Shown: piece after piece, positions 31,417 to 47,094 of the stretch
Layout: each line of letters opens with the position of its first letter
How positions within the stretch are numbered: the stretch's first letter is position 1
Source of the DNA: Sulfurimonas paralvinellae
GTDB taxonomy: Bacteria; Campylobacterota; Campylobacteria; Campylobacterales; Sulfurimonadaceae
NCBI RefSeq assembly: GCF_014905135.1
Contig: NZ_CP041406.1
Coordinates: forward strand, 620,001 to 684,000
Direction: 5' to 3'
Length of the DNA stretch: 64,000 nt
Program-made: the position numbers and the translations under genes
Notes under the pieces: generated by a model
Database searches by the model: none
Told to the model about the DNA's origin: nothing
Seen by the model: the letters and a program-made list of their open reading frames with translations, nothing else

Positions 31417-31466
31417 TAAAGGGCACTTCTAAAAAGTATTAAAGGAAAATTATCATAAATAAGATT

Positions 31467-32276
31467 GTGCTTATAACAGGATCTGGTTCTGGAATGGGAC
31501 GAGTGAGCTGTGAATTCTTAGCGGAACTTGGCTATACTGTCTTTGCTGGAACAAGAGATGTGTCTAAATTTGATAACAATAACATAAAAAATATTTTTCC
31601 TATAGATCTTGATATTACTTCTCAAGAGAGTATAAATCGAGTTATTGCAGATATATTACAACGATATGGAAAGATAGATATTCTTGTAAACAATGCAGGG
31701 TATGGACTGGTTGCAACTGTTGAGGATTTTAGTGAAGCAGAAATGCTCTCTGAGTATAATGTGAATGTCTTTGGTACTCTCCGAACCTGTAAAGCGGTTA
31801 TCCCAAGTATGCGAAAAAATAGAAGTGGAATTATTATCAATATATCTTCATTTTTGGGAAGAATTGGACTGCCTCTGCTAACGCTTTATAACTCCAGTAA
31901 ATATGCTGTTGAAGGAATTACAGATTCATTACGGTATGAACTAAGAGAGTTTGATATTCGCGTTCATTCCATTATGCCAGGCTTTTTTAGTACAGAGTTC
32001 GCCAAATCCAATCTTGTTACGAACCTACATACTTTTGATGAAAACTCTCCATATAGACATCTTGTCACATCTCTAGCTCCTGTTATCCTTGATCAAATTA
32101 ACAACGGAAATAATCCTTTGGAAGTCGCACACCTTATAAAAGAAATCATTGATGATGACAATTTTGTTGCCAGAGTAACCGTAGGGGATAAAGCAAGAAA
32201 ATTTATTCCTATGCGTAAAGAACTTAGTGATGAAGATTTTGAGCGTAGAGTTAGAAACTACTACAATATAAAATGA
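31467..32276 (+). CDS. Short-chain dehydrogenase/reductase, copy 1 (start codon uncertain)
   Basis: Classical SDR: TGSGSGMG cofactor loop, LVNNAGYG, Ser in INISSFLGRIG and the catalytic YNSSK. About half identical to the SDR at 33297 and colinear with it. The GTG at 31467 begins 4 residues later than the paralogue and cuts into the first beta strand. Upstream, in frame, the codon that aligns with the paralogue's Met1 is ATA (31455), with AAAGGA 8 nt before it. So the natural start may be ATA, or an ATG was lost. Substrate unknown. Followed by AraC in a 4-nt overlap. Confidence 0.85.
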   Translation: MLITGSGSGMGRVSCEFLAELGYTVFAGTRDVSKFDNNNIKNIFPIDLDITSQESINRVIADILQRYGKIDILVNNAGYGLVATVEDFSEAEMLSEYNVNVFGTLRTCKAVIPSMRKNRSGIIINISSFLGRIGLPLLTLYNSSKYAVEGITDSLRYELREFDIRVHSIMPGFFSTEFAKSNLVTNLHTFDENSPYRHLVTSLAPVILDQINNGNNPLEVAHLIKEIIDDDNFVARVTVGDKARKFIPMRKELSDEDFERRVRNYYNIK

Positions 32277-33193
32277 TGGAAAGCTTTTTTTTTAATATTA
32301 CAGATGCTTCCTATAAGGTTACTATGGAGTATGAAAACCAAGAAGAGTATGTTAAAAGAGTCGATATATCCAATGGCATTGTCTTTTATGATATTTTTTT
32401 AAATTCTTTTGGTGCAAATCAAAGCTTTGACATAAAAAATTTAGACAGACTTGTCGCTATTATTGTAGTCAATCAAGGAAATATTTCACTTCTTGATAAT
32501 ATTAGTGAAACAAATTATCTCCTTAAAGAAAATACTATTAGCATTTTTGAATCCTCTCGACAAAACTTTTCCTTTATGATTAATTCAAAAATAAAGATAT
32601 TTGCTATTTTTATTGCGGACTTTATTTTAAAAAGATATTTAAGTTCAGATAAGAACGAAGTTATTGATTTTTTATATGCCAATATTCAGGATGAAGTAAG
32701 CTGTATGCTTGTTGATGTACAGCCTATAGATGCTTTAAGTCTTTATATTATAGAAAAAATTCTTTACAAAAATGAAGATAATTTTATGAAGAGCATCAAG
32801 TGTGAGCATAGTATTTTAGAGTTTATGATTCATCGATTTTCACTTATAGATAGGTTAAATGATACTTTAGATATTGATGAAAAACATATAGCAAAGTCAG
32901 CCAGGGATATTTTACTTAAAAATTATATGACACCGCCTCACATTAAAGAATTGGCACATTTATGTGCTACAAACGAAACAAAACTCAAACAAATTTTTAA
33001 AAAAGCATATAAAACTACCATATATGCTTATATTCAGAAACTTCGTTTGGAAAAAGCAAATTTATTATTACGGGATAAACTTTGCACTATAGGTGAAGTA
33101 GCAAAGGAAGTTGGCTACAAACATCAGGGAAACTTTTCAAAACGATTTTTTGAGTATTACGGAGTTTATCCAAAAGAGCTACTTAAGAAATAA
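32273..33193 (+). CDS. AraC-family transcriptional regulator
   Basis: 306 residues. The C-terminal ~90 residues carry the two AraC helix-turn-helices (PPHIKELAHLCATNETKLKQIFKKAY and TIGEVAKEVGYKHQGNFSKRFFEYYGVYPKEL). The N-terminal ~210 residues look like an AraC-binding-type domain (NQGNISLLDN...), likely sensing a small ligand. The ATG overlaps the SDR stop (ATGA). Probably controls the next transcription unit, whose promoter has two direct repeats just upstream of the -35 box. Confidence 0.92.
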   Translation: MMESFFFNITDASYKVTMEYENQEEYVKRVDISNGIVFYDIFLNSFGANQSFDIKNLDRLVAIIVVNQGNISLLDNISETNYLLKENTISIFESSRQNFSFMINSKIKIFAIFIADFILKRYLSSDKNEVIDFLYANIQDEVSCMLVDVQPIDALSLYIIEKILYKNEDNFMKSIKCEHSILEFMIHRFSLIDRLNDTLDIDEKHIAKSARDILLKNYMTPPHIKELAHLCATNETKLKQIFKKAYKTTIYAYIQKLRLEKANLLLRDKLCTIGEVAKEVGYKHQGNFSKRFFEYYGVYPKELLKK

Positions 33194-33232
33194 TTCTTTG
33201 AGTGCTAAAATAAAATTCTTTTTGTGCTAAAA
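33192..33232 (+). promoter_or_regulatory. Two 19-bp direct repeats, likely AraC-family operator
   Basis: Repeat 1 (33192-33210) AATTCTTTGAGTGCTAAAA and repeat 2 (33214-33232) AATTCTTTTTGTGCTAAAA differ at 2 of 19 bases and start 22 bp apart (about two helical turns). Repeat 2 ends 5 bp before the -35 box. This is the usual geometry for an AraC-type activator touching RNA polymerase, and repeat 1 begins at the end of the regulator gene itself. Confidence 0.75.
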
Positions 33233-33237
33233 ACTCC

Positions 33238-33266
33238 TTGACTGAAGAAAAAAAACTTTCTATACT
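33238..33266 (+). promoter_or_regulatory. Near-consensus promoter of the second SDR operon
   Basis: TTGACT (33238-33243), 17-nt spacer, TATACT (33261-33266). Followed by a leader of about 30 nt and a TAAGGAG ribosome-binding site before ATG 33297. Confidence 0.85.
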
Positions 33267-33296
33267 TGATACAGTTTAAATAAGGAGAACTTAATC

Positions 33297-34109
33297 ATGA
33301 AAAAAGTAGTTTTAATTACAGGTGCAACATCAGGAATGGGTAAATTAACAGCTGAAACTTTGACAAAAGCTGGTTATATGGTATATGCTGGAACTAGAGA
33401 TAAGAATAGTTCTGCATCTACAGATAATTTAAAAGAAATTTATATAGATGTAACAAATACAGAGAGTATTAATGATGCAGTAGCAGCAATTATTACAAAA
33501 GAAGGCAAAATAGATGTACTTGTAAACAATGCCGGTTATGGTTTATTGGCAACTGTTGAAGATGGTACGGATGAAGAGATGTATCATCAATTTGATGTCA
33601 ATGTTTTTGGACTTTTAAAAACAACACGTGCGGTCATTCCTCATATGCGTAAAGAAAGGTCAGGTGTAATAATAAACATTTCTTCATTTTTGGGAAAAAT
33701 GGGCTTGCCTCTTTTAACTCATTATAATGCTTCTAAATATGCAGTTGAAGGAATTGTCGATTCACTAAGATTTGAGATGAATCCCTTTTGTGTACGTGTT
33801 CATTCCATTCAGTCTGGATTATTTGGAACAAATTTTGTTGCAAAAGGTTTAGTAGCAAATGTACAAACTACAAATGAAAATTCACCATACAAAGAATTAG
33901 TTGCTCATTTTGTGCCAATTGTTGCAAAAGCTATAAATGAAGGACCATCTCCCCAACCAATTGCTGATGCAGTAAAAGATATTATTGAAGATGAAAATTC
34001 TGATATTTTTGTACCAGTTGGTGCTGAAGCTGAAACATTTGTACCTATGCGAAAAGAGTTAAATGATAAAGAATTTGAAGTAAAAATAAAAGAGACTTTT
34101 GGAATTTAG
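33297..34109 (+). CDS. Short-chain dehydrogenase/reductase, copy 2
   Basis: 270 residues, classical SDR: VLITGATSGMG, VLVNNAGYG, IINISSFLGKMG with catalytic Ser, and YNASK. Colinear with the SDR at 31467, about half identical, including the unusual C-terminal block FVPMRKEL. Two diverged copies flank the AraC gene, a sign of old duplication followed by specialisation. Substrate unknown; the SSFLG..GLPLLT.YN.SKYAVEG pattern is widespread among NADP-dependent alcohol/aldehyde SDRs. Behind a strong regulated promoter. Confidence 0.93.
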   Translation: MKKVVLITGATSGMGKLTAETLTKAGYMVYAGTRDKNSSASTDNLKEIYIDVTNTESINDAVAAIITKEGKIDVLVNNAGYGLLATVEDGTDEEMYHQFDVNVFGLLKTTRAVIPHMRKERSGVIINISSFLGKMGLPLLTHYNASKYAVEGIVDSLRFEMNPFCVRVHSIQSGLFGTNFVAKGLVANVQTTNENSPYKELVAHFVPIVAKAINEGPSPQPIADAVKDIIEDENSDIFVPVGAEAETFVPMRKELNDKEFEVKIKETFGI

Positions 34110-34138
34110 TTATATTTTTTTATAAAGGAGAAGTTGAT

Positions 34139-35341
34139 ATGTTGCGACTGAGTTTTTTAGCAATAATTATAATTATTGCCTGGATAGAAGTCCTCCCTTA
34201 TTTAATACCGAAAAAACCAAAAAAGAGTTATAACGATGAACAGTTGCGTGAAATTGCTTTAAGTCGGGGAATGCGTCCTATTCCAAAGGAGTATGATACA
34301 TTTTTAAAACTTCTTGATTCTAAAGAAAATCCTATTACAAAAGCAAAAGTTGCACTTGGGAAAAAACTTTTTTTTGATAAGCTTCTTTCAAGTGATAAAA
34401 CTATCAGTTGTGCATCATGTCATCTTCTTGGCGAAAATCCTCATAATCAAAATCAATTTTCAGATGACATGACTCATCCACAAGGCAAAACAGATTGTAT
34501 GGTCTGTCATATAAAAGATGAAAGCGGTTCGGACAGACTATCAACCGCTATAGGTGTGCAAGGAAGAACTGCCCCAAATCATCTCAATACGCCTACAATT
34601 TTGAATTCTGCTTTGGCGAAGTATAGAATGTGGGACGGTTCAGCTAAAACCTCATTAGATACTATCGCACCTATGATACATGATAAATACAAAATGAATC
34701 TCACATCGGCAGAACTAGTGAAAAGATTAAACAATAATACTTTTTATAAACAAGAGTTTGCAAAAGTTTTTAAAAACGGTGTAACATTTGAAAATGTACA
34801 AAAGGCACTGGATATTTATCAAAAGACACTCCTGACTAGAAGTGCTTATGACAGATTTTTAGAAGGAGATAACCAAGCACTGAGCGAAGAAGCAAAAAGA
34901 GGTTTTAGAAATTTTATACAGCTTGGATGCAAGGGGTGTCATACCGGTATAACAGTAGGAGGGCAAACTATACAAAAGTTTCCTGCTCGAAATTATAATC
35001 ATATTATTGATGTTACGGGAATGTTTAGCAGAGAATATATTGGAAGAGATGTTGCTGCATTTAATTTTAACTTTAAACCATCTCATAGATATCCTTTTGA
35101 AAATAAAGGCGGCTATCTTGGTAAAGATAACAAACAGCTTTTTCGTGTACCGATTTTAAGAAATGTTACAAAAACTTCCCCTTATTTTCATAATGGATCG
35201 GTATTTGATTTACGAGAAGCCGTTCACATTATGGGGAAATATCAATTAAGTATGGAATTGACTGAGACTCAAATAGATGAGATAGTGGCTTTTTTGAAAT
35301 CACTTGATGGTGAAGTAGTCGAGTATAAGGAGCTGAAATGA
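34139..35341 (+). CDS. Cytochrome c peroxidase/MauG-family protein with three heme motifs
   Basis: 400 residues: an N-terminal membrane anchor (5-22), then periplasm. Heme motifs CASCH (91-95), CMVCH (120-124) and CKGCH (264-268). Motifs 1 and 3 with GRTAPNHLNTPTILN and RVPILRNVTKTSPYFHNGSV are the normal diheme peroxidase set. The middle motif lies in a loop inserted between heme 1 and the substrate side, so it is extra. In E. coli YhjA the third heme is N-terminal instead. Possible roles: H2O2 reduction or oxidation of a periplasmic target. RBS GGAG. Overlaps the next gene by 4 nt. Confidence 0.9.
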   Translation: MLRLSFLAIIIIIAWIEVLPYLIPKKPKKSYNDEQLREIALSRGMRPIPKEYDTFLKLLDSKENPITKAKVALGKKLFFDKLLSSDKTISCASCHLLGENPHNQNQFSDDMTHPQGKTDCMVCHIKDESGSDRLSTAIGVQGRTAPNHLNTPTILNSALAKYRMWDGSAKTSLDTIAPMIHDKYKMNLTSAELVKRLNNNTFYKQEFAKVFKNGVTFENVQKALDIYQKTLLTRSAYDRFLEGDNQALSEEAKRGFRNFIQLGCKGCHTGITVGGQTIQKFPARNYNHIIDVTGMFSREYIGRDVAAFNFNFKPSHRYPFENKGGYLGKDNKQLFRVPILRNVTKTSPYFHNGSVFDLREAVHIMGKYQLSMELTETQIDEIVAFLKSLDGEVVEYKELK

Positions 35342-37146
35342 AAATTTTGTATGTTAACTTTGATATTCTTTTTATGTTTATCAGCGGTCTGTTACTTATA
35401 AACTATTTTTCTATAGAATGGTCTTATTTTCGTGTGATAGAGTTTTTGCATATATTTGGTTCCATTGTCATTACAGTTTTTTTTGTACTTCCCTTTTTGT
35501 ATAAACATATCTATGCGAGTATGATAAAAATGAAGCATGAGAGCAAGAGTGGTCTTCTCTTTGCTTTTGTCTTTTTTTTACTGCTTGTTAGTGGGGTATA
35601 CCTGTTTTTAATCGGTAATAGAGGAGGAGATGTTTATGGCATTATATCTTACAATGTCCATCTTTACGGTTCTTTTATTTTGATGTTTTTTCTAATTTTA
35701 CATCTTAGAAAATTCTTTTTTTCGAAAGTATTTACAACATTGGCTTGGGCTGTTGTTCTTTTTTTACCGAGCCATGCTTATTCAAGTTCAAAGAAATTGA
35801 CTAATATTGTTTTTGCTGACGGGGCGAGGAGTTATCATAATATTGATTGGACGAATTCAACTACATGTAAAGAGTGCCATCCAAAAATTTTTCAACAGTG
35901 GGCTGATTCAAATCACAGACATCTTGCTGATTCAAATCCATATTATATGGTACTGGAGAACTTAGCGGGAATGGATAGAGGTGAAAAATTTCGACAATGG
36001 TGTATGGGATGTCATAATCCGAGTGCTGTGAGTATGCATCAGGAAAAAACAACACACTTTATGAGAGACAATATTATGCCGGAATCGCTCTTTACAAAGG
36101 GGTCGCAAAATCTTATAAATGAATATAAAGCACATCCATACCGCTTGGAGCATGGTGTCTCCTGTATTGCATGTCATCGCATAGTGGATGCTAAACCTAT
36201 GGGGAACAGTTCCTATTCACTGAATCTTACAAAAAGAAAGAAATATTTATATGAAGACTCTCATAGTGATACAAAAGTCTGGATAAGCCACAAGCTTATC
36301 AATGCAAATCCGAAAACACATAAACAAGAGTATATGAAACCTTTGTATAAAAAAAGTAAGTATTGTGCATCGTGTCATAATGAATTCTTACCACATTCAG
36401 GGAAAAAGGTTGTTTCAACGTATGAACAATGGGAAAAATCACCTTATAATGATCCTAAAAAACCAAAAAAACATAAAGATTGTATAGATTGTCATATGAC
36501 ATATTTAGATAATGGAACATATACTCCGCTGCAAGGAACTTCAACACTTGGTGGTAAAAAGAAAAAAGATATAAAAGTACACTATTTTGCAGGAGGGAAC
36601 TATTTCCTTGCAGGTTTGAAAAATAAAGAGAATGAATCACAATCAATTCAGCTTTTAAAAACATCTGCAAAATTGGATGCAAAAATTGATACTAAAGGCA
36701 TATTGCAAATTGGCGTGAAAAATGTAGGTGCAGGGCACAAGCTGCCGACAGGAGCAGCAGATTTTCGAGAACTTTGGCTTGATGTTAGTGTTAGGGATAA
36801 AAATAAAAAAATCGTTTTTAGCAGCGGAAAATTGGACAAAAAAGGTGATATAGAAAAAGGTTCTATTGTTTTTAACAAGATGTTTGGCGATAAGGATGGG
36901 AATCCTGTAGGTCTGTATTTTTGGAGATATGAAAAGCTGATTAAAGACACAAGAATACCTGCAGGTAAGAGAGTTGTAGAAAAATTCACACTACCTGAAA
37001 ATGTAGAGTATCCATTGCATGTAGAGATAAAACTAAACTTTAGAATTTATCCGCAATGGGTTACCAATATAGTAAAATCAGCATATCCGCAATTGACGGA
37101 TCCTCCCGTTATTACAATACAAAAGCTGGAGAAGCAATTTGATTAA
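35338..37146 (+). CDS. Cytochrome-b-like membrane domain fused to pentaheme cytochrome c
   Basis: 602 residues. Residues 1-145 hold four or five TM helices with four His (38, 57, 108, 122) in two pairs, as in di-heme b561-type bundles. Then come five CxxCH motifs: CKECH (177), CMGCH (222), CIACH (276), CASCH (343) and CIDCH (382). The last ~200 residues are beta-rich, with the motif VGAGHKLPTGAADFRELWLDV found in some multiheme cytochromes. The layout suggests a quinol-oxidising or quinone-reducing electron conduit feeding the adjacent peroxidase. Substrate unknown. It overlaps both neighbours (4 and 8 nt). Confidence 0.88.
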   Translation: MKILYVNFDILFMFISGLLLINYFSIEWSYFRVIEFLHIFGSIVITVFFVLPFLYKHIYASMIKMKHESKSGLLFAFVFFLLLVSGVYLFLIGNRGGDVYGIISYNVHLYGSFILMFFLILHLRKFFFSKVFTTLAWAVVLFLPSHAYSSSKKLTNIVFADGARSYHNIDWTNSTTCKECHPKIFQQWADSNHRHLADSNPYYMVLENLAGMDRGEKFRQWCMGCHNPSAVSMHQEKTTHFMRDNIMPESLFTKGSQNLINEYKAHPYRLEHGVSCIACHRIVDAKPMGNSSYSLNLTKRKKYLYEDSHSDTKVWISHKLINANPKTHKQEYMKPLYKKSKYCASCHNEFLPHSGKKVVSTYEQWEKSPYNDPKKPKKHKDCIDCHMTYLDNGTYTPLQGTSTLGGKKKKDIKVHYFAGGNYFLAGLKNKENESQSIQLLKTSAKLDAKIDTKGILQIGVKNVGAGHKLPTGAADFRELWLDVSVRDKNKKIVFSSGKLDKKGDIEKGSIVFNKMFGDKDGNPVGLYFWRYEKLIKDTRIPAGKRVVEKFTLPENVEYPLHVEIKLNFRIYPQWVTNIVKSAYPQLTDPPVITIQKLEKQFD

Positions 37147-37519
37147 AGGCATAGTTGTTTTGATTCTTTTGGCTTTGTATGCTGATGCGTTTATAATAGA
37201 AAGTTCTTATGAAATGGCACACACAAAAGCGCTCAAAAAAGGAAAGTCTTTGGTTGTTTTTTTGACAAAAAAGAACTGCAATGGGTGCAATGAAGAACTT
37301 GCAAAAATTATTCATAGTAAAGATTTATCTTTGAGTATTGATGAATATGCAGTCTTTGTGATAGGACAGCAAGGGCAAAAAGGGAGTTATCCCATAGAAA
37401 TGCTCTACACTACACAATATCCGGCACTGTTTATTCTTGATGAAAATGAGTTGTTAAAATGCAATTTCTTTAGTACAAACATGGAATTTAAAGATATCAC
37501 CAAATGCATAAAACCATAA
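37139..37519 (+). CDS. Periplasmic thioredoxin-like protein (CNGC)
   Basis: 126 residues: signal peptide (GIVVLILLALYADA), then a thioredoxin-like domain with CNGC in place of CGPC and the cis-Pro strand TQYPALFIL. TTG start, overlapping the pentaheme gene by 8 nt. Its position next to two multiheme proteins suggests a role in heme-cysteine reduction or disulfide handling. Another Cys near the C terminus (KDITKCIKP). Confidence 0.85.
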   Translation: MIKGIVVLILLALYADAFIIESSYEMAHTKALKKGKSLVVFLTKKNCNGCNEELAKIIHSKDLSLSIDEYAVFVIGQQGQKGSYPIEMLYTTQYPALFILDENELLKCNFFSTNMEFKDITKCIKP

Positions 37520-37542
37520 GCATTATGTTTAGTGTAATGCTT
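37518..37542. terminator. 8-bp hairpin at convergent gene ends
   Basis: AAGCATTA (37518-37525) pairs with TAATGCTT (37535-37542) around a 9-base loop, spanning the end of the thioredoxin-like gene and the stop of the convergent TrpD2 gene. No T-tract, so weak support for termination. Confidence 0.35.
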
Positions 37543-38422
37543 CAAAAGCTTCTTCGATACTGTTATATTTCTGTGTTATAAAAAGATATACAGCAGCATT
37601 TAATTGTGCTAGTTTCAGGTATTCTTCCGAAGGATTGTTTAACTGGTCAAGTGAGTCTTGGAGTGTTATAGTTTCCCACGATTTTTTGTAATGGATATCG
37701 AAATATTCAGGGTCTATAATATGCTCCTCTATATCTTCACCGTTAACGATCCATAAGCGTCCTTTGCTGAAAAGTTCCGGTGTACCTTCATTGCCTTGAA
37801 TCAAGGCTAAATGTTTGTACCTGTCAGTATAAATTTCGGCATATTTTTTTACAAAAGGTTTATGAAAAACACCGGTTATGGCATATTCACTTTTAGCGAC
37901 TCCGGAGAGCTTTTCTATGGTGCTAAAGCTGCTTCGAAGTCCAAGTTTGTTCCGTACATCAGTAAGATTATGCAGTTTGTTAAAAAACTCTTTTCTGTCA
38001 AAGTAGTGAGTGTTTGGTGTGAGATTGATGTGCGTGATGATATCTTTGATAGTAATACCGTCTTTTGCCGGCTGTTTTTCATCACCGACAAGTACAAGAT
38101 TAAGATTATGTTTTTCGAGCGCTTTGGCAACAAGTGGAAAGATATAGGGATTTTTAGCTTTGCCGTCAAAAGGATAACCTAGTTCAATGGAGTTTTTCAC
38201 CTCTGATTTTGTAATATTCTTATCACAGGCGGCAAGTGCACCTTGAAACTCTTCTGTCGTCTCCGGTTTAAGTCTCCAGCCGAGTAAGAAGGCCGCTATC
38301 TGTTCTGTCGGGATACTTTGGTTTAAAATCTGTGTCATCATATCTTGTGCTTCTTCGAAACTAAGATCACGATTCCCTTTTGGACCGGTTCCAACGGCAT
38401 GTATATATTTGAAAAAATCCAT
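37529..38422 (-). CDS. TrpD2/YbiB-type glycosyltransferase-family-3 protein
   Basis: 297 residues, resembling anthranilate phosphoribosyltransferase in the N-terminal helical domain (SFEEAQDMMTQILNQSIPTEQIAAFLLGWRLKPET). The substrate region departs from TrpD: no GTGGD motif, instead ELGYPFDGKAKNPYIFPL. This fits the TrpD2 (YbiB) group, which in E. coli binds nucleic acid and lacks PRT activity. Single gene on minus, convergent with the thioredoxin-like gene. Confidence 0.8.
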   Translation of the reverse strand: MDFFKYIHAVGTGPKGNRDLSFEEAQDMMTQILNQSIPTEQIAAFLLGWRLKPETTEEFQGALAACDKNITKSEVKNSIELGYPFDGKAKNPYIFPLVAKALEKHNLNLVLVGDEKQPAKDGITIKDIITHINLTPNTHYFDRKEFFNKLHNLTDVRNKLGLRSSFSTIEKLSGVAKSEYAITGVFHKPFVKKYAEIYTDRYKHLALIQGNEGTPELFSKGRLWIVNGEDIEEHIIDPEYFDIHYKKSWETITLQDSLDQLNNPSEEYLKLAQLNAAVYLFITQKYNSIEEAFEALH

Positions 38423-43170: not shown

Positions 43171-44808
43171 TTACGCACCTGGAATTGATTGTCTATGTTC
43201 GATAGAGTAAGTAAAAGTCGGCGTTGTTAAACCTTTGATGTATTTAACGAATTTACCAGTTTTTGCTTCATAGATACCGATACGACCAGCATTCCATTCA
43301 GAGATCATAGTCCAGTGACCATGATTAGCAGGTTCAGCGTGTAAGATTCTAGGAATCACAACTTTACCTTTTTTATCTTTAACTGTTGGCACTTTCCAGC
43401 TGTAAAGTACTTTGTGTGTTACAGGGTCTGTAACAGTACCTCTTTTTGTTCCAACAGTGATGATTCTGTCTGTTTCAAGAGTTTGTTTGTTGATAAGATA
43501 CATTTTGTTCCAGTTAGCTTTTCCGCCAAGTACACAGTCTGACCAGATAAATGGTGTATGCTCACTTGTACCAACGAAAAGACCACCACCAGCAGTTCTA
43601 ACGTGTGCAACAACATCCCAGCTGCTATCCCAGATAACAACATCACCAACATTCATACTGTTTGTAGCATAAAGCTGACCATATCTGTCATTGTACCAGC
43701 TAGATCCTTGACCTGGGTGAGGCTTGCTTCCTGGACCTGTATAGACTTTAGCAACGAGAGATTTCGTTTTAAAATCAACAACGCCCATTACATCAGAACC
43801 TTGAGATGCTTGCATTAAGTAACGACCGATCTCTTTACCTTCATTTTCAAAACCATCGTGTAAGATTTTACCGATATTTGGAATATCTCCAACGATTGGA
43901 TAGTTTGGTTTAGAGTAATCTACTATATAAACATGCCCTGCATCTTTAAGTGCAAATGCAATGTATGGACCGTACGGAGTATCATAAATACCTGCAACCC
44001 GGCTTGAACCGATGTCTCCATCCATATTGATAACAGATGATGTAGGGTATACTTTTAACGGCTCTAATGTCATAGCATCCATAAGTACTGCACCACCTGG
44101 AACATAGTTACCTGCCATGAGGTATTTACCATCTGGTGAAACTGCAAGACCACGAGATTCAGACCCGACTTGACACTGTGCAATTTTTTGCTGACCTTTT
44201 GAAGCAAGGTCGAACATAGTTACCAGACCTGAACGACTGATAGAGTATGCATAACGAGGCTGACGTTTATTTGTCACTGTTACGTGAACAGCAAATCCGG
44301 CAGGGTGTTTTGATAAAACTTTTCCATTTGTGCCATCAACAAAAACAACACGTGCAGCATCACGTTCTGTAACGAAACAGATATCTGTTACTTTTTTTAC
44401 ATCTGCTGCGTGAGGATATTTTTTCAACAATGCCATTCTGTCATTGAGCTTTTTCCACCCTTTTTTAACAGCATCCAAAGTAAGAACTTCAATTTTCTTA
44501 CCTTTGAAGTGTTGTAGGTAGTCAACCATTTTTTGTGCATCTGCTTTATTCATTTTTTCAGCAAACGGAGGCATTGCCGTACCCGGACGGCCATTTAAAA
44601 TAGTCTGAGCAAGTGAATATGAATTTTTGTCTTTTAACTTCGCTGGACGTAAATCAGCACCAACACCACCTTCGTGATTTGGTCCATGACATCCTTGACA
44701 CTCTTTTTCGAACATTTTTTCAACATTCATATGTGAAGTGCCGGCAAATAAACCTGAACTTACAACTGCAAGTGCTGCAACTGATATAACTAATTTATTT
44801 AATCTCAT
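43171..44808 (-). CDS. nirS: Cytochrome cd1 nitrite reductase NirS
   Basis: Reduces nitrite to NO in the periplasm. 545 residues from the ATG at 44808: signal peptide (KLVISVAALAVVSSGLFA), cytochrome c domain with CQGCH (37-41), then an eight-bladed heme-d1 propeller starting near residue 115, including a His-rich C-terminal part. The frame runs to 44910, but that N-terminal extension has no ribosome-binding site, whereas AGGAG precedes ATG 44808. Preceded by a small membrane protein gene and norB in the same operon. Confidence 0.97.
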   Translation of the reverse strand: MRLNKLVISVAALAVVSSGLFAGTSHMNVEKMFEKECQGCHGPNHEGGVGADLRPAKLKDKNSYSLAQTILNGRPGTAMPPFAEKMNKADAQKMVDYLQHFKGKKIEVLTLDAVKKGWKKLNDRMALLKKYPHAADVKKVTDICFVTERDAARVVFVDGTNGKVLSKHPAGFAVHVTVTNKRQPRYAYSISRSGLVTMFDLASKGQQKIAQCQVGSESRGLAVSPDGKYLMAGNYVPGGAVLMDAMTLEPLKVYPTSSVINMDGDIGSSRVAGIYDTPYGPYIAFALKDAGHVYIVDYSKPNYPIVGDIPNIGKILHDGFENEGKEIGRYLMQASQGSDVMGVVDFKTKSLVAKVYTGPGSKPHPGQGSSWYNDRYGQLYATNSMNVGDVVIWDSSWDVVAHVRTAGGGLFVGTSEHTPFIWSDCVLGGKANWNKMYLINKQTLETDRIITVGTKRGTVTDPVTHKVLYSWKVPTVKDKKGKVVIPRILHAEPANHGHWTMISEWNAGRIGIYEAKTGKFVKYIKGLTTPTFTYSIEHRQSIPGA

Positions 44809-44864
44809 TTTATTTCTCCTTCTAAAATTGAAGATTGGGCATGGCCCCAATGGAGCCAGCCGAA

Positions 44865-45017
44865 CTAGTTTTCGTTTTCTAAGCGTTTTTTCTCTTGGAA
44901 GTAAATCCAAATCATTGGAAGTACAATAATAGTGTGAAGAAAAATCGTTAACGTTAAAGGACCTTGGTTGAGCCAGCCGAAAAAGCTAGGCACAACGTCT
45001 GTAAATGGTTCAAACAT
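44865..45017 (-). CDS. 50-residue single-TM protein between norB and nirS
   Basis: Starts MFEPFTDVVPSFFGWLNQGP, with one TM helix (about 20-40, LTLTIFLHTIIVLPMIWIYF) containing a His, and a charged tail EKKRLENEN. The ATG has AAGGAGAT upstream; the norB stop lies 9 nt before it and nirS starts 56 nt after its stop. The AAGGAG site plus position in the operon make translation very likely. It looks like a small accessory subunit (CcoQ-like in size and topology) for NorBC or NirS, but I recognise no family. Confidence 0.8.
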   Translation of the reverse strand: MFEPFTDVVPSFFGWLNQGPLTLTIFLHTIIVLPMIWIYFQEKKRLENEN

Positions 45018-45026
45018 TTTATCTCC

Positions 45027-46451
45027 TTATCTTTCGTGTACTGGATTTTTACCAGTAGTAAGTAAATCTTTTGCAAGGAATACAAAACCTAGGAATGTTA
45101 CAGCACCCATAATAAGTCTCCAATCCATTGCTTGTATAAACCACATACCGCTTTGACCGTCAAAGTATCCTGCCCATGTAGCACCCATTTGTGCACGTGA
45201 GACAAGAACTTGAACGTATCCGGCAATAGTCAGTGCTACTGTCATACCGACAACACCACCAGTGATCATACTAACAGCCCAGATTGAAGCTTTTGTATGT
45301 TTCATAACTTTAAGACCATTTGTCCCTTGAACTGCGATATACATCATACCTACAAGGATAGTTGCATATGCACCAAAGAATGCCAAGTGACCGTGTGCTG
45401 AAGTAAACTGTGTACCGTGAGTATAAAGGTTTACCTGTGGTAGTGTGTGGAAGAATCCCCAGATACCAGCACCTAAGAAGTTACCAAATGCATTAAGAAC
45501 AAACCATGTAAACGCAGGTTTATTATTGATAACAGATACATCACTACCTTTAGCTTCTTCACCACCTTGTGTTTTACCCCAGTCATAAAGTACGTGGATA
45601 AACATTGCAACAAGTGGTAGTGGTTCTAGAGCTGAGAAGAGTGCACCAATTTCCCACCAGTACTCAGGTGTACCGATCCAGAAGTAGTGGTGACCTAGTC
45701 CAAGAATACCTGAACCAAATAGCATCGCAACCTCTATCCATAGCCACATCTCAACAACTTTACGGTGTGCACCGATCATAGTGATAAGACCATAAGCAGC
45801 GATTGAACCAACAAAAACTTCCCATGTAGCTTCAACCCATAAGTGGATTACCCACCACCACCAGTATTGATCAACAGAGATATTGTCAGTAAAGAACATA
45901 CCAGCTAAGTAAAGACCTGCAAATGCAATCATATCTGCCATAAGAACAGTTACAATTCCTGTTTGTTTACCTTTTATACCTGTTAAGAATAAGTTTGCAA
46001 CAAATCCTAACGCTACTACTACAATACCCCAGTCAGCCCAACGAGGCGCTTCGATATATTCACGTCCTTCAGTAATGAACCAGATAGTTGTTGCATCTGC
46101 CGGACCTACTTGAACAAGAAGGTAAACCAACACAACGACAACGATAGCAGCTGCAAAGATCCAAAAAAGAAGCTTTCCAAGTTTAATACCAACAGTTTCT
46201 ATACCTGTTTCATCAGGTAATAACCAGTAAACTGAACCAAACATTGCAAAAACCATCCATACTACAAGAGCATTGATGTGTAAGATTCTAGCAATAGAGA
46301 AGTCTAATACTCCATAAAGGAAACCTGGCATTACGTACTGAATTGCTGCAACTAAACCAAAAAGTAATTGAGCACCAAAAATGATAGCAGCAAAAGTAAA
46401 GTACCATGTTGCTAATTGTTTTGACTCTGATGTTAAATGATTATTTGCCAT
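45027..46451 (-). CDS. norB: Nitric oxide reductase large subunit NorB
   Basis: Heme-copper-type NO reductase subunit (2 NO to N2O) in the inner membrane, cNOR type with NorC. About 12 TM helices and intact metal sites: HINALVVWMVFAMFGSVYW (low-spin heme), HLWVEATWEVFVGS with FeB-ligand His and the conserved Glu, GLGHHYFWIG (His-His), and HGHLAFFGAY (heme b3/b ligands). ATG at 46451 behind AAGGAG is chosen; the longer frame to 46493 lies inside norC. Overlaps norC by 11 nt. Confidence 0.97.
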   Translation of the reverse strand: MANNHLTSESKQLATWYFTFAAIIFGAQLLFGLVAAIQYVMPGFLYGVLDFSIARILHINALVVWMVFAMFGSVYWLLPDETGIETVGIKLGKLLFWIFAAAIVVVVLVYLLVQVGPADATTIWFITEGREYIEAPRWADWGIVVVALGFVANLFLTGIKGKQTGIVTVLMADMIAFAGLYLAGMFFTDNISVDQYWWWWVIHLWVEATWEVFVGSIAAYGLITMIGAHRKVVEMWLWIEVAMLFGSGILGLGHHYFWIGTPEYWWEIGALFSALEPLPLVAMFIHVLYDWGKTQGGEEAKGSDVSVINNKPAFTWFVLNAFGNFLGAGIWGFFHTLPQVNLYTHGTQFTSAHGHLAFFGAYATILVGMMYIAVQGTNGLKVMKHTKASIWAVSMITGGVVGMTVALTIAGYVQVLVSRAQMGATWAGYFDGQSGMWFIQAMDWRLIMGAVTFLGFVFLAKDLLTTGKNPVHER

Positions 46452-47094
46452 TGATAGCTCCTTGCATATGTCCAAAGTTTCTTGGGAAACCATTTGTATC
46501 TATTGATGACATATGTTTTAAAAATGCAACCAAACCTTTAGCCTCTTCAGCTGTAATACCTAAATTAGGCATCATACGAGCATGTGTAGGATATTGGTCA
46601 GGATGTTGTAAGAATTCAGCCATAGCTTCTTCTTTTGTGTTTTTTCCAGTTAATGCCTGCATTGCACCATCTGGTCCCCAAGCTGGGTCTAACCATGCTT
46701 TTGTCAAGTCTGGTGCATAATAAGCTCCATTACCAAGAAGTGTATGACAATCCATACAGTTTTTAGCCTGTGAACCCAGTTTACCTAAGTGAAGGAGAGC
46801 TCCCGCTTCTTCTTCTGAATAATCATCACGACCAAAGAACTTCTCTTTTTCTCCGATTACCGGAACTTCATGACCGCGTTTTGCACTCATTTCATATGTA
46901 ATCTTGTAATTAATAACAGTAGGTCCTGGAACCCTTTTTGTTACACCATTTTTAAGATCTTGATCGTTACCCATTGCAATTTGTGCCGACGTATCAAACG
47001 TTAGCCAAATCAGTAGTATCGATGCAAAACCTGTAACCCACGTTGCTGAACGCTGCCAGAAACGATTGTCACTCCATACAGATTTATTAGCCAC
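46441..47094 (-). CDS. norC: Nitric oxide reductase cytochrome c subunit NorC
   Basis: Membrane-anchored monoheme cytochrome that hands electrons to NorB. 217 residues: one TM helix (about 17-36), then heme motif CMDCH (113-117) with TLLGNGAYYAPDL behind it and a distal Met in ARMMPNLGIT. Larger than the ~150 residues of Pseudomonas NorC because of ~60 extra residues between helix and heme. Confidence 0.96.
   Translation of the reverse strand: MANKSVWSDNRFWQRSATWVTGFASILLIWLTFDTSAQIAMGNDQDLKNGVTKRVPGPTVINYKITYEMSAKRGHEVPVIGEKEKFFGRDDYSEEEAGALLHLGKLGSQAKNCMDCHTLLGNGAYYAPDLTKAWLDPAWGPDGAMQALTGKNTKEEAMAEFLQHPDQYPTHARMMPNLGITAEEAKGLVAFLKHMSSIDTNGFPRNFGHMQGAINGK

Follow-up and report, generated by a model that had tools for sequence, protein, structure and literature searches.

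Bacterial cytochrome c peroxidases (BCCPs) and their relatives MauG and BthA have a distal glutamate, glutamine and proline in common, and the E277Q variant of BthA is inactive (PMC6405878). In the Neisseria BCCP, the P-heme cavity is formed by Phe, Gln, Pro, Glu and Met, and the same paper cites BCCP variants of the Glu and the Gln as inactive (PMC10094543). Another homologue of cytochrome c peroxidases (CCPs), hydrazine synthase gamma, has been proposed to reduce NO (PMC12607021). For the Campylobacterota, the available portion of a review on respiration describes one cytochrome c peroxidase (Cj0358c) and no module like the one reported here (PMC6682613), and that of a paper on S. pluma lists a generic ccp (PMC10066037); our literature search, which covered few subscription papers, found no description of such a module. 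Here we analyse a six-gene block within a 64,000-nucleotide stretch (hereafter the window) of the 2.08 Mb genome of Sulfurimonas paralvinellae (G000).

All six genes lie on the forward strand and encode, in this order, a short-chain dehydrogenase (SDR1), an AraC-family regulator, a second short-chain dehydrogenase (SDR2), a CCP_MauG protein with three CxxCH heme motifs (CCP3), a protein with five such motifs (bPENTA) and a small CxxC protein (Table 1), a composition already recognised in an earlier sequence-only reading of this DNA. CCP3 overlaps bPENTA by 4 bases, and bPENTA overlaps the CxxC gene by 8. In this block, CCP3 gained a third heme and its bPENTA partner together with the loss of the residues of the peroxide-cleaving pocket. 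We tentatively interpret the block, with somewhat less than an even chance of being right, as a quinol-linked, membrane-attached module that transfers electrons within the NO/denitrification machinery and whose CCP3 would no longer be a peroxidase.

The core of the block is the CCP3-bPENTA pair. Among 149 related genomes, bPENTA matches at E ≤0.001 were found in 62, often weak ones to pentaheme proteins of 370–400 aa; the 39 carriers of a short bPENTA, sorted by hand from these matches, were exactly the 39 genomes carrying CCP3. The two genes were separated by 0–39 bases in all 39 (G026 and G071 being judged by a bPENTA fragment beside CCP3, and G007 by the end of CCP3). When 397 Campylobacterota genomes were drawn evenly, bPENTA was present at E 1e-60 in 23 of them, 17 from the family of the window and 6 from family f9, and the three-heme CCP3 and five-heme bPENTA genes were adjacent in all 13 loci fetched from carriers new in this draw. 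Such conservation (39/39 and 13/13) therefore excludes that they are chance neighbours. Whether the neighbours stay together had been set beforehand as a possible refutation of the module: CCP3 and bPENTA do, SDR1-AraC-SDR2 only in part. In fact, the order SDR1-AraC-SDR2-CCP3-bPENTA occurs in L002, L010, L018, L025, L072, L074, L075 and other loci, SDR1-AraC without SDR2 in L008, L020 and L021, and the pair has no adjoining SDR or AraC gene in L001, L006, L007, L061, L139, L141, L143, L144 and L148; AraC was present in 6 of the 13 further loci. The SDR and AraC genes are thus the variable part of the block. A correlation of 0.91 between bPENTA and CCP3 distances (21 loci) was not used, as vertical inheritance alone would produce a correlation and there was no control.

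In genomes without bPENTA, the same AraC slot is filled by a two-heme CCP of 356–377 aa (CCP2), as in SDR1-AraC-SDR2-CCP2-CxxC protein (L082, L089) or SDR1-AraC-CCP2 (L083, L084, L091). By their matches, some of them partial, 23 genomes have CCP2, and only G054 has it together with CCP3. We fetched 16 CCP2 regions, of which 15 contained a clean two-heme CCP (L087 of G092 was not resolved by the open reading frame (ORF) caller), and aligned these 15 with the CCP3 of 38 loci (37 distinct, L011 and L071 being identical). All 38 CCP3 have the third heme motif, which in one sequence is N-masked beyond its first Cys, and no CCP2 has it. The place of the catalytic glutamate, K185 in the window, is Glu in 15/15 CCP2 and in 0/38 CCP3 (0/37 distinct), which have Lys (21), Gln (11), Thr (5) or Ile (1). 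Likewise, the proline is present in 15/15 CCP2 and 0/38 CCP3 (0/37 distinct), and the phenylalanine in 14/15 and 0/38; the glutamine, invariant in CCP2 (15/15), is kept in 25/38 CCP3 (24/37 distinct). In the window CCP3, the places of the distal Glu, Gln and Pro hold Lys, Met and Thr. It belongs to a subclade of 10 loci, all devoid of the distal Gln, with Met at position 164 and, by matching counts, at 179, where the others mostly have Thr and Ser. The inter-heme Trp165 and the axial Met365 are kept in 38/38 CCP3 and 15/15 CCP2, so that the electron path through CCP3 seems to have been kept. Peroxide as natural substrate, one of the compounds suggested by the sequence-only reading, is not supported, because CCP3 misses the distal residues that BCCP, MauG and BthA need. 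With the pocket lost and an obligate partner, the block cannot be regarded as an ordinary CCP operon either.

A phylogenetic tree, with ten other CCPs of the same genomes as outgroup, grouped all 38 CCP3 loci in one clade (support 0.999). CCP3 is thus of single origin. This clade is nested in the CCP2 part of the tree, but the node joining CCP2 with CCP3 is weak (0.401) and takes in the outgroup sequence L105, so that the choice of an exact sister would be tentative. The catalytic Glu is kept in 9 of the 10 outgroup CCPs, L102 being the exception. The ancestor of CCP3 would have been a peroxidase-type protein with two hemes, encoded in the same AraC operon.

The partner protein, bPENTA, matched the Pfam families Cytochrome_C554 and Cytochrome_C7 (2e-6 each); Cytochrom_NNT (NapC/NrfH-type) was not among its five Pfam matches at E 0.1. 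Its CxxCH motifs start at residues 177, 222, 276, 343 and 382. Four His in the hydrophobic segments are always kept (38, 57 and 108 in 22/22 aligned rows, 122 in 21/21) and could bind two b hemes, from which we infer the 'b-type' label. Eight further His (167, 193, 240, 266, 328, 379, 415 and 467) are conserved in at least 21/22 rows, which would be enough for bis-His hemes. Outside Campylobacterota, distant relatives of the pentaheme part (23–29% identity) occur in L028, L029 and L030; no second CxxCH gene was called in L028. In a long paralogue of ~1115–1140 aa, which has full-length matches in 5/149 genomes (e.g., L023 5970-9335), the same N-terminus and the pentaheme part are accompanied by a beta-propeller and by a single CxxCH with weak similarity to CCP_MauG. 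Several side observations concern this family. A family of 674-aa proteins that matches no Pfam entry is encoded next to the long paralogue, or close to it, in L023, L077, L078, L079 and L080. Five-heme proteins of 370–400 aa without the hydrophobic domain are encoded in the nir regions of L081, L083, L084, L094 (370–390 aa), L005 and L008, those of L081 and L094 with ~23% identity to bPENTA. In G004, an in-frame TAA, either genuine or an assembly error, interrupts both the short (L072) and the long (L079) copies.

The carriers of CCP3 are associated with denitrification genes, a link to NO-related genes that is in line with the sequence-only reading. NirS, found in 70 of the 149 genomes, occurs in 37/39 CCP3 carriers against 33/110 non-carriers (Fisher 3e-13, with no kinship correction), the two carriers lacking it being the incomplete genomes G033 (78% complete) and G071 (70% complete), and NorB in 36/39 carriers against 38/110 others. 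Among genomes of the genus at least 90% complete, all 31 carriers have both NirS (compared with 13/29 non-carriers, again with no kinship correction) and NorB (11/29 non-carriers). Taking the two peroxidase homologues together, NirS or NorB is present in 58/61 genomes with CCP2 or CCP3 and in 25/88 without. NirS is also present in 11 of the 13 further carriers, which form an independent set, and the complete genomes G407 and G429 have NorB without NirS; in family f9, NorB is present in 6/6 carriers and in 1/4 of the non-carriers examined. We looked for a copper nitrite reductase (CuNIR, TIGR02376) as NO source in the carriers without NirS and found no match over the cut-off in 15/15 genomes (no match whatever in G407 and two weak ones in G429).

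The regulator follows the CCP genes as well. AraC relatives with at least 37% identity occur in 28 genomes, all of which have CCP2 or CCP3 (weaker matches of 30–33% in G093 and G138 were left out). Two direct repeats 22 nt apart lie between AraC and SDR2, or before CCP3 where SDR2 is missing, and the pair TGCTAAAA-N14-TGCTAAAA is exact in 10/11 aligned loci, L018 being degenerate. Exact pairs were found at 26 sites in 23/149 genomes, 21 of these genomes being among the 28 with AraC, and the backwards-read control gave 1 site. Of these sites, 22 lie upstream of CCP2 or CCP3 on the same strand, 62–1108 bases before the CCP match except for one in G062, which is placed before SDR2, 5 kb upstream of the CCP; for two of the other four, in G096 and G112, no gene of the module was found, the one in G114:C210 is at the edge of its contig, and the one in G078:C80 comes after a fused SDR-HTH gene. 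In G062, G025 and G074 the site precedes SDR2 and again CCP3, in G056 it precedes CCP3 at 3.3 kb from AraC, and in G067 AraC is on a different contig. The repeat site thus follows the CCP gene. No exact pair was found in 7/28 AraC genomes, nor any pair within two mismatches in L082, L083, L087 and L089. Among the 13 further loci, the six with AraC all had the exact pair, L147 had it without AraC nearby, and the other six had neither. The single regulator assumed by the sequence-only reading therefore holds, in that AraC is retained with a direct-repeat site before SDR2 or the CCP. Both features expected of an AraC-family regulator with a direct-repeat operator are present, namely the AraC helix-turn-helix (HTH) domain and a pair of direct repeats ahead of the putative target, and AraC, where it occurs, would act via the paired repeat before SDR2/CCP3. 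The promoter-like element beside the repeats is of a kind not enriched in these sequences (32 TTGACT-N17-TATACT-like matches versus 30.8 in shuffled sequence).

SDR2 directly precedes CCP3 or CCP2 in many loci, and both SDRs may take part in one response with the cytochromes. The ORF caller placed SDR1 at 31467-32276. However, the frame from 31455 reads INKIVLITG, with an in-frame stop six codons upstream, an AAAGGA 7 nt before it and no ATG, GTG or TTG after it until the GTG at 31467. The codon at this place is ATG in 13/29 related loci, AUC or AUU in L010, L026, L062, L063 and L083, and another codon in the remaining ten, several of which have a start at least one codon upstream. SDR1 thus probably starts at the AUA at 31455, the position chosen in the sequence-only reading; non-AUG (AUN) starts are known from infC. 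In G078:C80 (L108), a single ORF (373-1554) carries fused SDR and AraC HTH domains, which hints at a joint function of SDR1 and AraC, and an ABM-domain monooxygenase gene (1596-1937) comes after this ORF and the same repeat site. The last gene of the block matched Thioredoxin_7 with 19.4 bits, the cut-off being 27; a CxxC is present in 18/23 clustered relatives, and its product may likewise serve the module.

In the electron-transfer module that we propose, menaquinol would reduce the two putative b hemes of bPENTA, from which electrons may pass to its five c hemes, then, presumably within a complex, to the three hemes of CCP3, and finally to a periplasmic acceptor of the nitrite/NO pathway. 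Since the peroxide pocket has been rebuilt, CCP3 would either relay electrons or turn to some other small ligand, and its peroxidase function would be gone. Several observations weigh against this proposal. CCP2 shows the same link to NirS and NorB, so the link alone cannot separate a peroxidase from a non-peroxidase; CCP2 and CCP3 are both missing from 17 of the 70 genomes with NirS, and the carriers already have NorB, with no visible gap in NO reduction. The shared ancestry of the genomes means that the P values are not independent. The N-terminal hydrophobic part of bPENTA has no Pfam or NCBIfam match of its own, and the heme-free AlphaFold2 models built on 22-row alignments are poor (mean pLDDT 57.1 for bPENTA and 61.3 for CCP3); heme ligands were not read from them, Foldseek family matches alone being used. 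Finally, an FTR1 iron permease adjoins the long bPENTA paralogue in L077, at least, and the bPENTA family may hence serve other acceptors.

CCP3 might alternatively be a quinol peroxidase after all, parallel to YhjA, with bPENTA feeding electrons and another residue replacing the Glu in H2O2 reduction, which we consider unlikely. It has a CCP fold whose closest solved relatives are BCCPs, with Trp and Met retained, its AraC slot is shared with CCP2, whose full pocket is kept, and YhjA, too, is a membrane-anchored triheme protein that receives its electrons from quinols (PMC10301912). However, Glu and Pro are absent from every CCP3 and Gln from the whole window subclade, the residue found instead at 185 varies, and a single change of the Glu or Gln abolishes activity in other members (PMC10094543, PMC6405878). 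It appears quite unlikely that CCP3 is itself a terminal reductase whose altered pocket is the active site for NO or a related small N-oxide. The association with NirS and NorB and the precedent of hydrazine synthase gamma (PMC12607021), whose family CCP3 matches at E 5e-11 (42 bits, far below the cut-off of 625), speak for it; yet the pocket is not uniform across CCP3, the two Met of the window subclade could cap the heme, CCP3 has Trp where hydrazine synthase gamma has His (PMC12758564), and NorB is present anyway. NO chemistry at CCP3 is possible but not favoured for the two-Met pocket of the window subclade. In a bolder form, also unlikely, a peroxidase fold would have been converted once (Glu and Pro lost, a heme inserted, a b/pentaheme subunit gained) into a new quinol-dependent NO/N-oxide reductase with its own AraC switch, which, with NirS and NorCB, would keep periplasmic NO low. 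In a variant for the window subclade, the second site would be Met-capped and the unit a bc1-independent electron wire into the denitrification cytochromes. A response to reactive electrophiles (carbonyls or quinones), with the SDRs as its core and an electron exchange between cytochromes and quinone pool that may run in the oxidising direction, is improbable: SDR1-AraC-SDR2 does precede CCP2 or CCP3 in several families, and the G078 fusion with its repeat site and ABM-domain gene fits, but many loci have the pair with no SDR or AraC gene adjoining.

The features of the block and the denitrification genes near it are listed in Table 1. CCP3 scores 144 bits against Pfam CCP_MauG (cut-off 25.6), has its CxxCH motifs at residues 91, 120 and 264, and carries a hydrophobic stretch at residues 5–23. 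The nir/nor surroundings further include a radical-SAM gene and a cd1-fold gene, and we take the genes of this region, from their Pfam domains, to be NirS, NirJ, NirF, NorB and NorC. The placement of the block inside a heme d1 region, as first read from the sequence, is right for the window genome and many relatives and wrong for G061 and for L136-L142, seven loci of other genera in which the block is distant from nirS; we accordingly rejected the block as a heme d1 gene set. Where the block lies in the nir region, it is often adjoined by a glycosyltransferase-3 (TrpD-like) gene, found in the window at 37529-38422 on the reverse strand.

Table 1. Coordinates, in the window, of the genes and sites of the CCP3-bPENTA block and of nearby denitrification genes.
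Feature	Position	Strand	Evidence or remark
SDR1, short-chain dehydrogenase	31455..32276 (start ATA 31455, or GTG 31467)	+	Pfam adh_short E 6e-46
AraC-family regulator, 306 aa	32273..33193	+	Pfam HTH_18 E 2e-17
Putative AraC operator, two direct repeats	33194..33232	+	TGCTAAAA at 33203-33210 and 33225-33232, start-to-start 22 nt
Promoter-like TTGACT-N17-TATACT, just 3' of the repeats	33238..33266	+	Matches equally common in shuffled sequence
SDR2, short-chain dehydrogenase, 270 aa	33297..34109	+	Pfam adh_short E 2e-45
CCP3, N-terminally anchored three-heme CCP homologue, 400 aa	34139..35341	+	Pfam CCP_MauG E 6e-42
Inserted third heme motif CMVCH of CCP3, residues 120-124	34496..34510	+	
K185 codon of CCP3, place of the BCCP catalytic Glu	34691..34693	+	Neisseria BCCP Glu aligned over K185
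bPENTA, hydrophobic N-terminus, five CxxCH and C-terminal beta domain, 602 aa	35338..37146	+	
Small secreted CxxC (thioredoxin-like) protein, TTG start	37139..37519	+	Thioredoxin_7 below cut-off
cd1 nitrite reductase gene	43171-44910		Pfam domain
COX1-family NorB-like gene	45027-46493		Pfam domain
Cytochrome c NorC-like gene	46441-47094		Pfam domain

With heme gain, Glu and Pro loss and a dedicated membrane partner all in one clade, CCP3 would be a clear example from nature of an enzyme whose function has changed, for which the close two-heme relative in the same operon slot is a built-in control. The repeat site offers direct access to the regulon and to the signal behind it. The sulfur-oxidising Sulfurimonas are important in marine sulfur and nitrogen cycling, and the module would be a new branch in the supply and protection of their denitrification enzymes. 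It would also argue against an annotation of such genes as 'cytochrome c peroxidase'.

Among known systems, the di-heme BCCPs (Neisseria 6fu3/6qkn, Paracoccus 2c1u) share with CCP3 the CCP_MauG fold, the P and E heme motifs, the inter-heme Trp and the axial Met; unlike them, CCP3 has a further heme motif, placed as an insert after its first one and ahead of the distal loop, has lost the distal Glu, Pro and Phe and partly the Gln, and possesses a membrane anchor and an obligate bPENTA. The YhjA-type triheme quinol peroxidases (E. coli YhjA, QPO, PerC) resemble it in their three hemes, N-terminal membrane helix and presumed quinol source, but the third heme of YhjA lies in an extra N-terminal domain and its pocket has Glu and Gln (PMC10301912), whereas that of CCP3 is inserted inside the CCP domain (residue 120, between 91 and 264), next to a rebuilt pocket and with a separate b/pentaheme subunit. 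MauG has Tyr for the axial Met (PMC6405878), which is M365 in 38/38 CCP3, and CCP3 scores only 121.7 bits against the NCBIfam MauG model (cut-off 443.85). For bPENTA, the best Foldseek match of its low-confidence model (E 1e-9), and the only PDB fold match with E <0.001, is the penta-heme cytochrome c552 of Thermochromatium tepidum (5ze8), similar in its five hemes, C-terminal beta domain and GHxLPTG-type loop, with 17% identity over the fold alignment and the hydrophobic domain of bPENTA outside the match. ExtKL/MccSep (NF040886; 9wt8) is distantly similar to bPENTA in the heme and beta domains (E 6e-12; 44.9 bits, cut-off 250), but the place of the MccSep Sec is Ala in the window bPENTA and Ala, Val or Ile in its relatives. 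Finally, hydrazine synthase beta-gamma and homologues with N-terminal c554-type hemes likewise link a CCP-like domain to c554-type multiheme parts (PMC12758564). The long bPENTA paralogue also shares a beta-propeller with them, which the window version lacks. Hydrazine synthase gamma has His for the inter-heme Trp (PMC12758564) retained in 38/38 CCP3, and CCP3 and bPENTA are separate genes with a hydrophobic, b-like domain.

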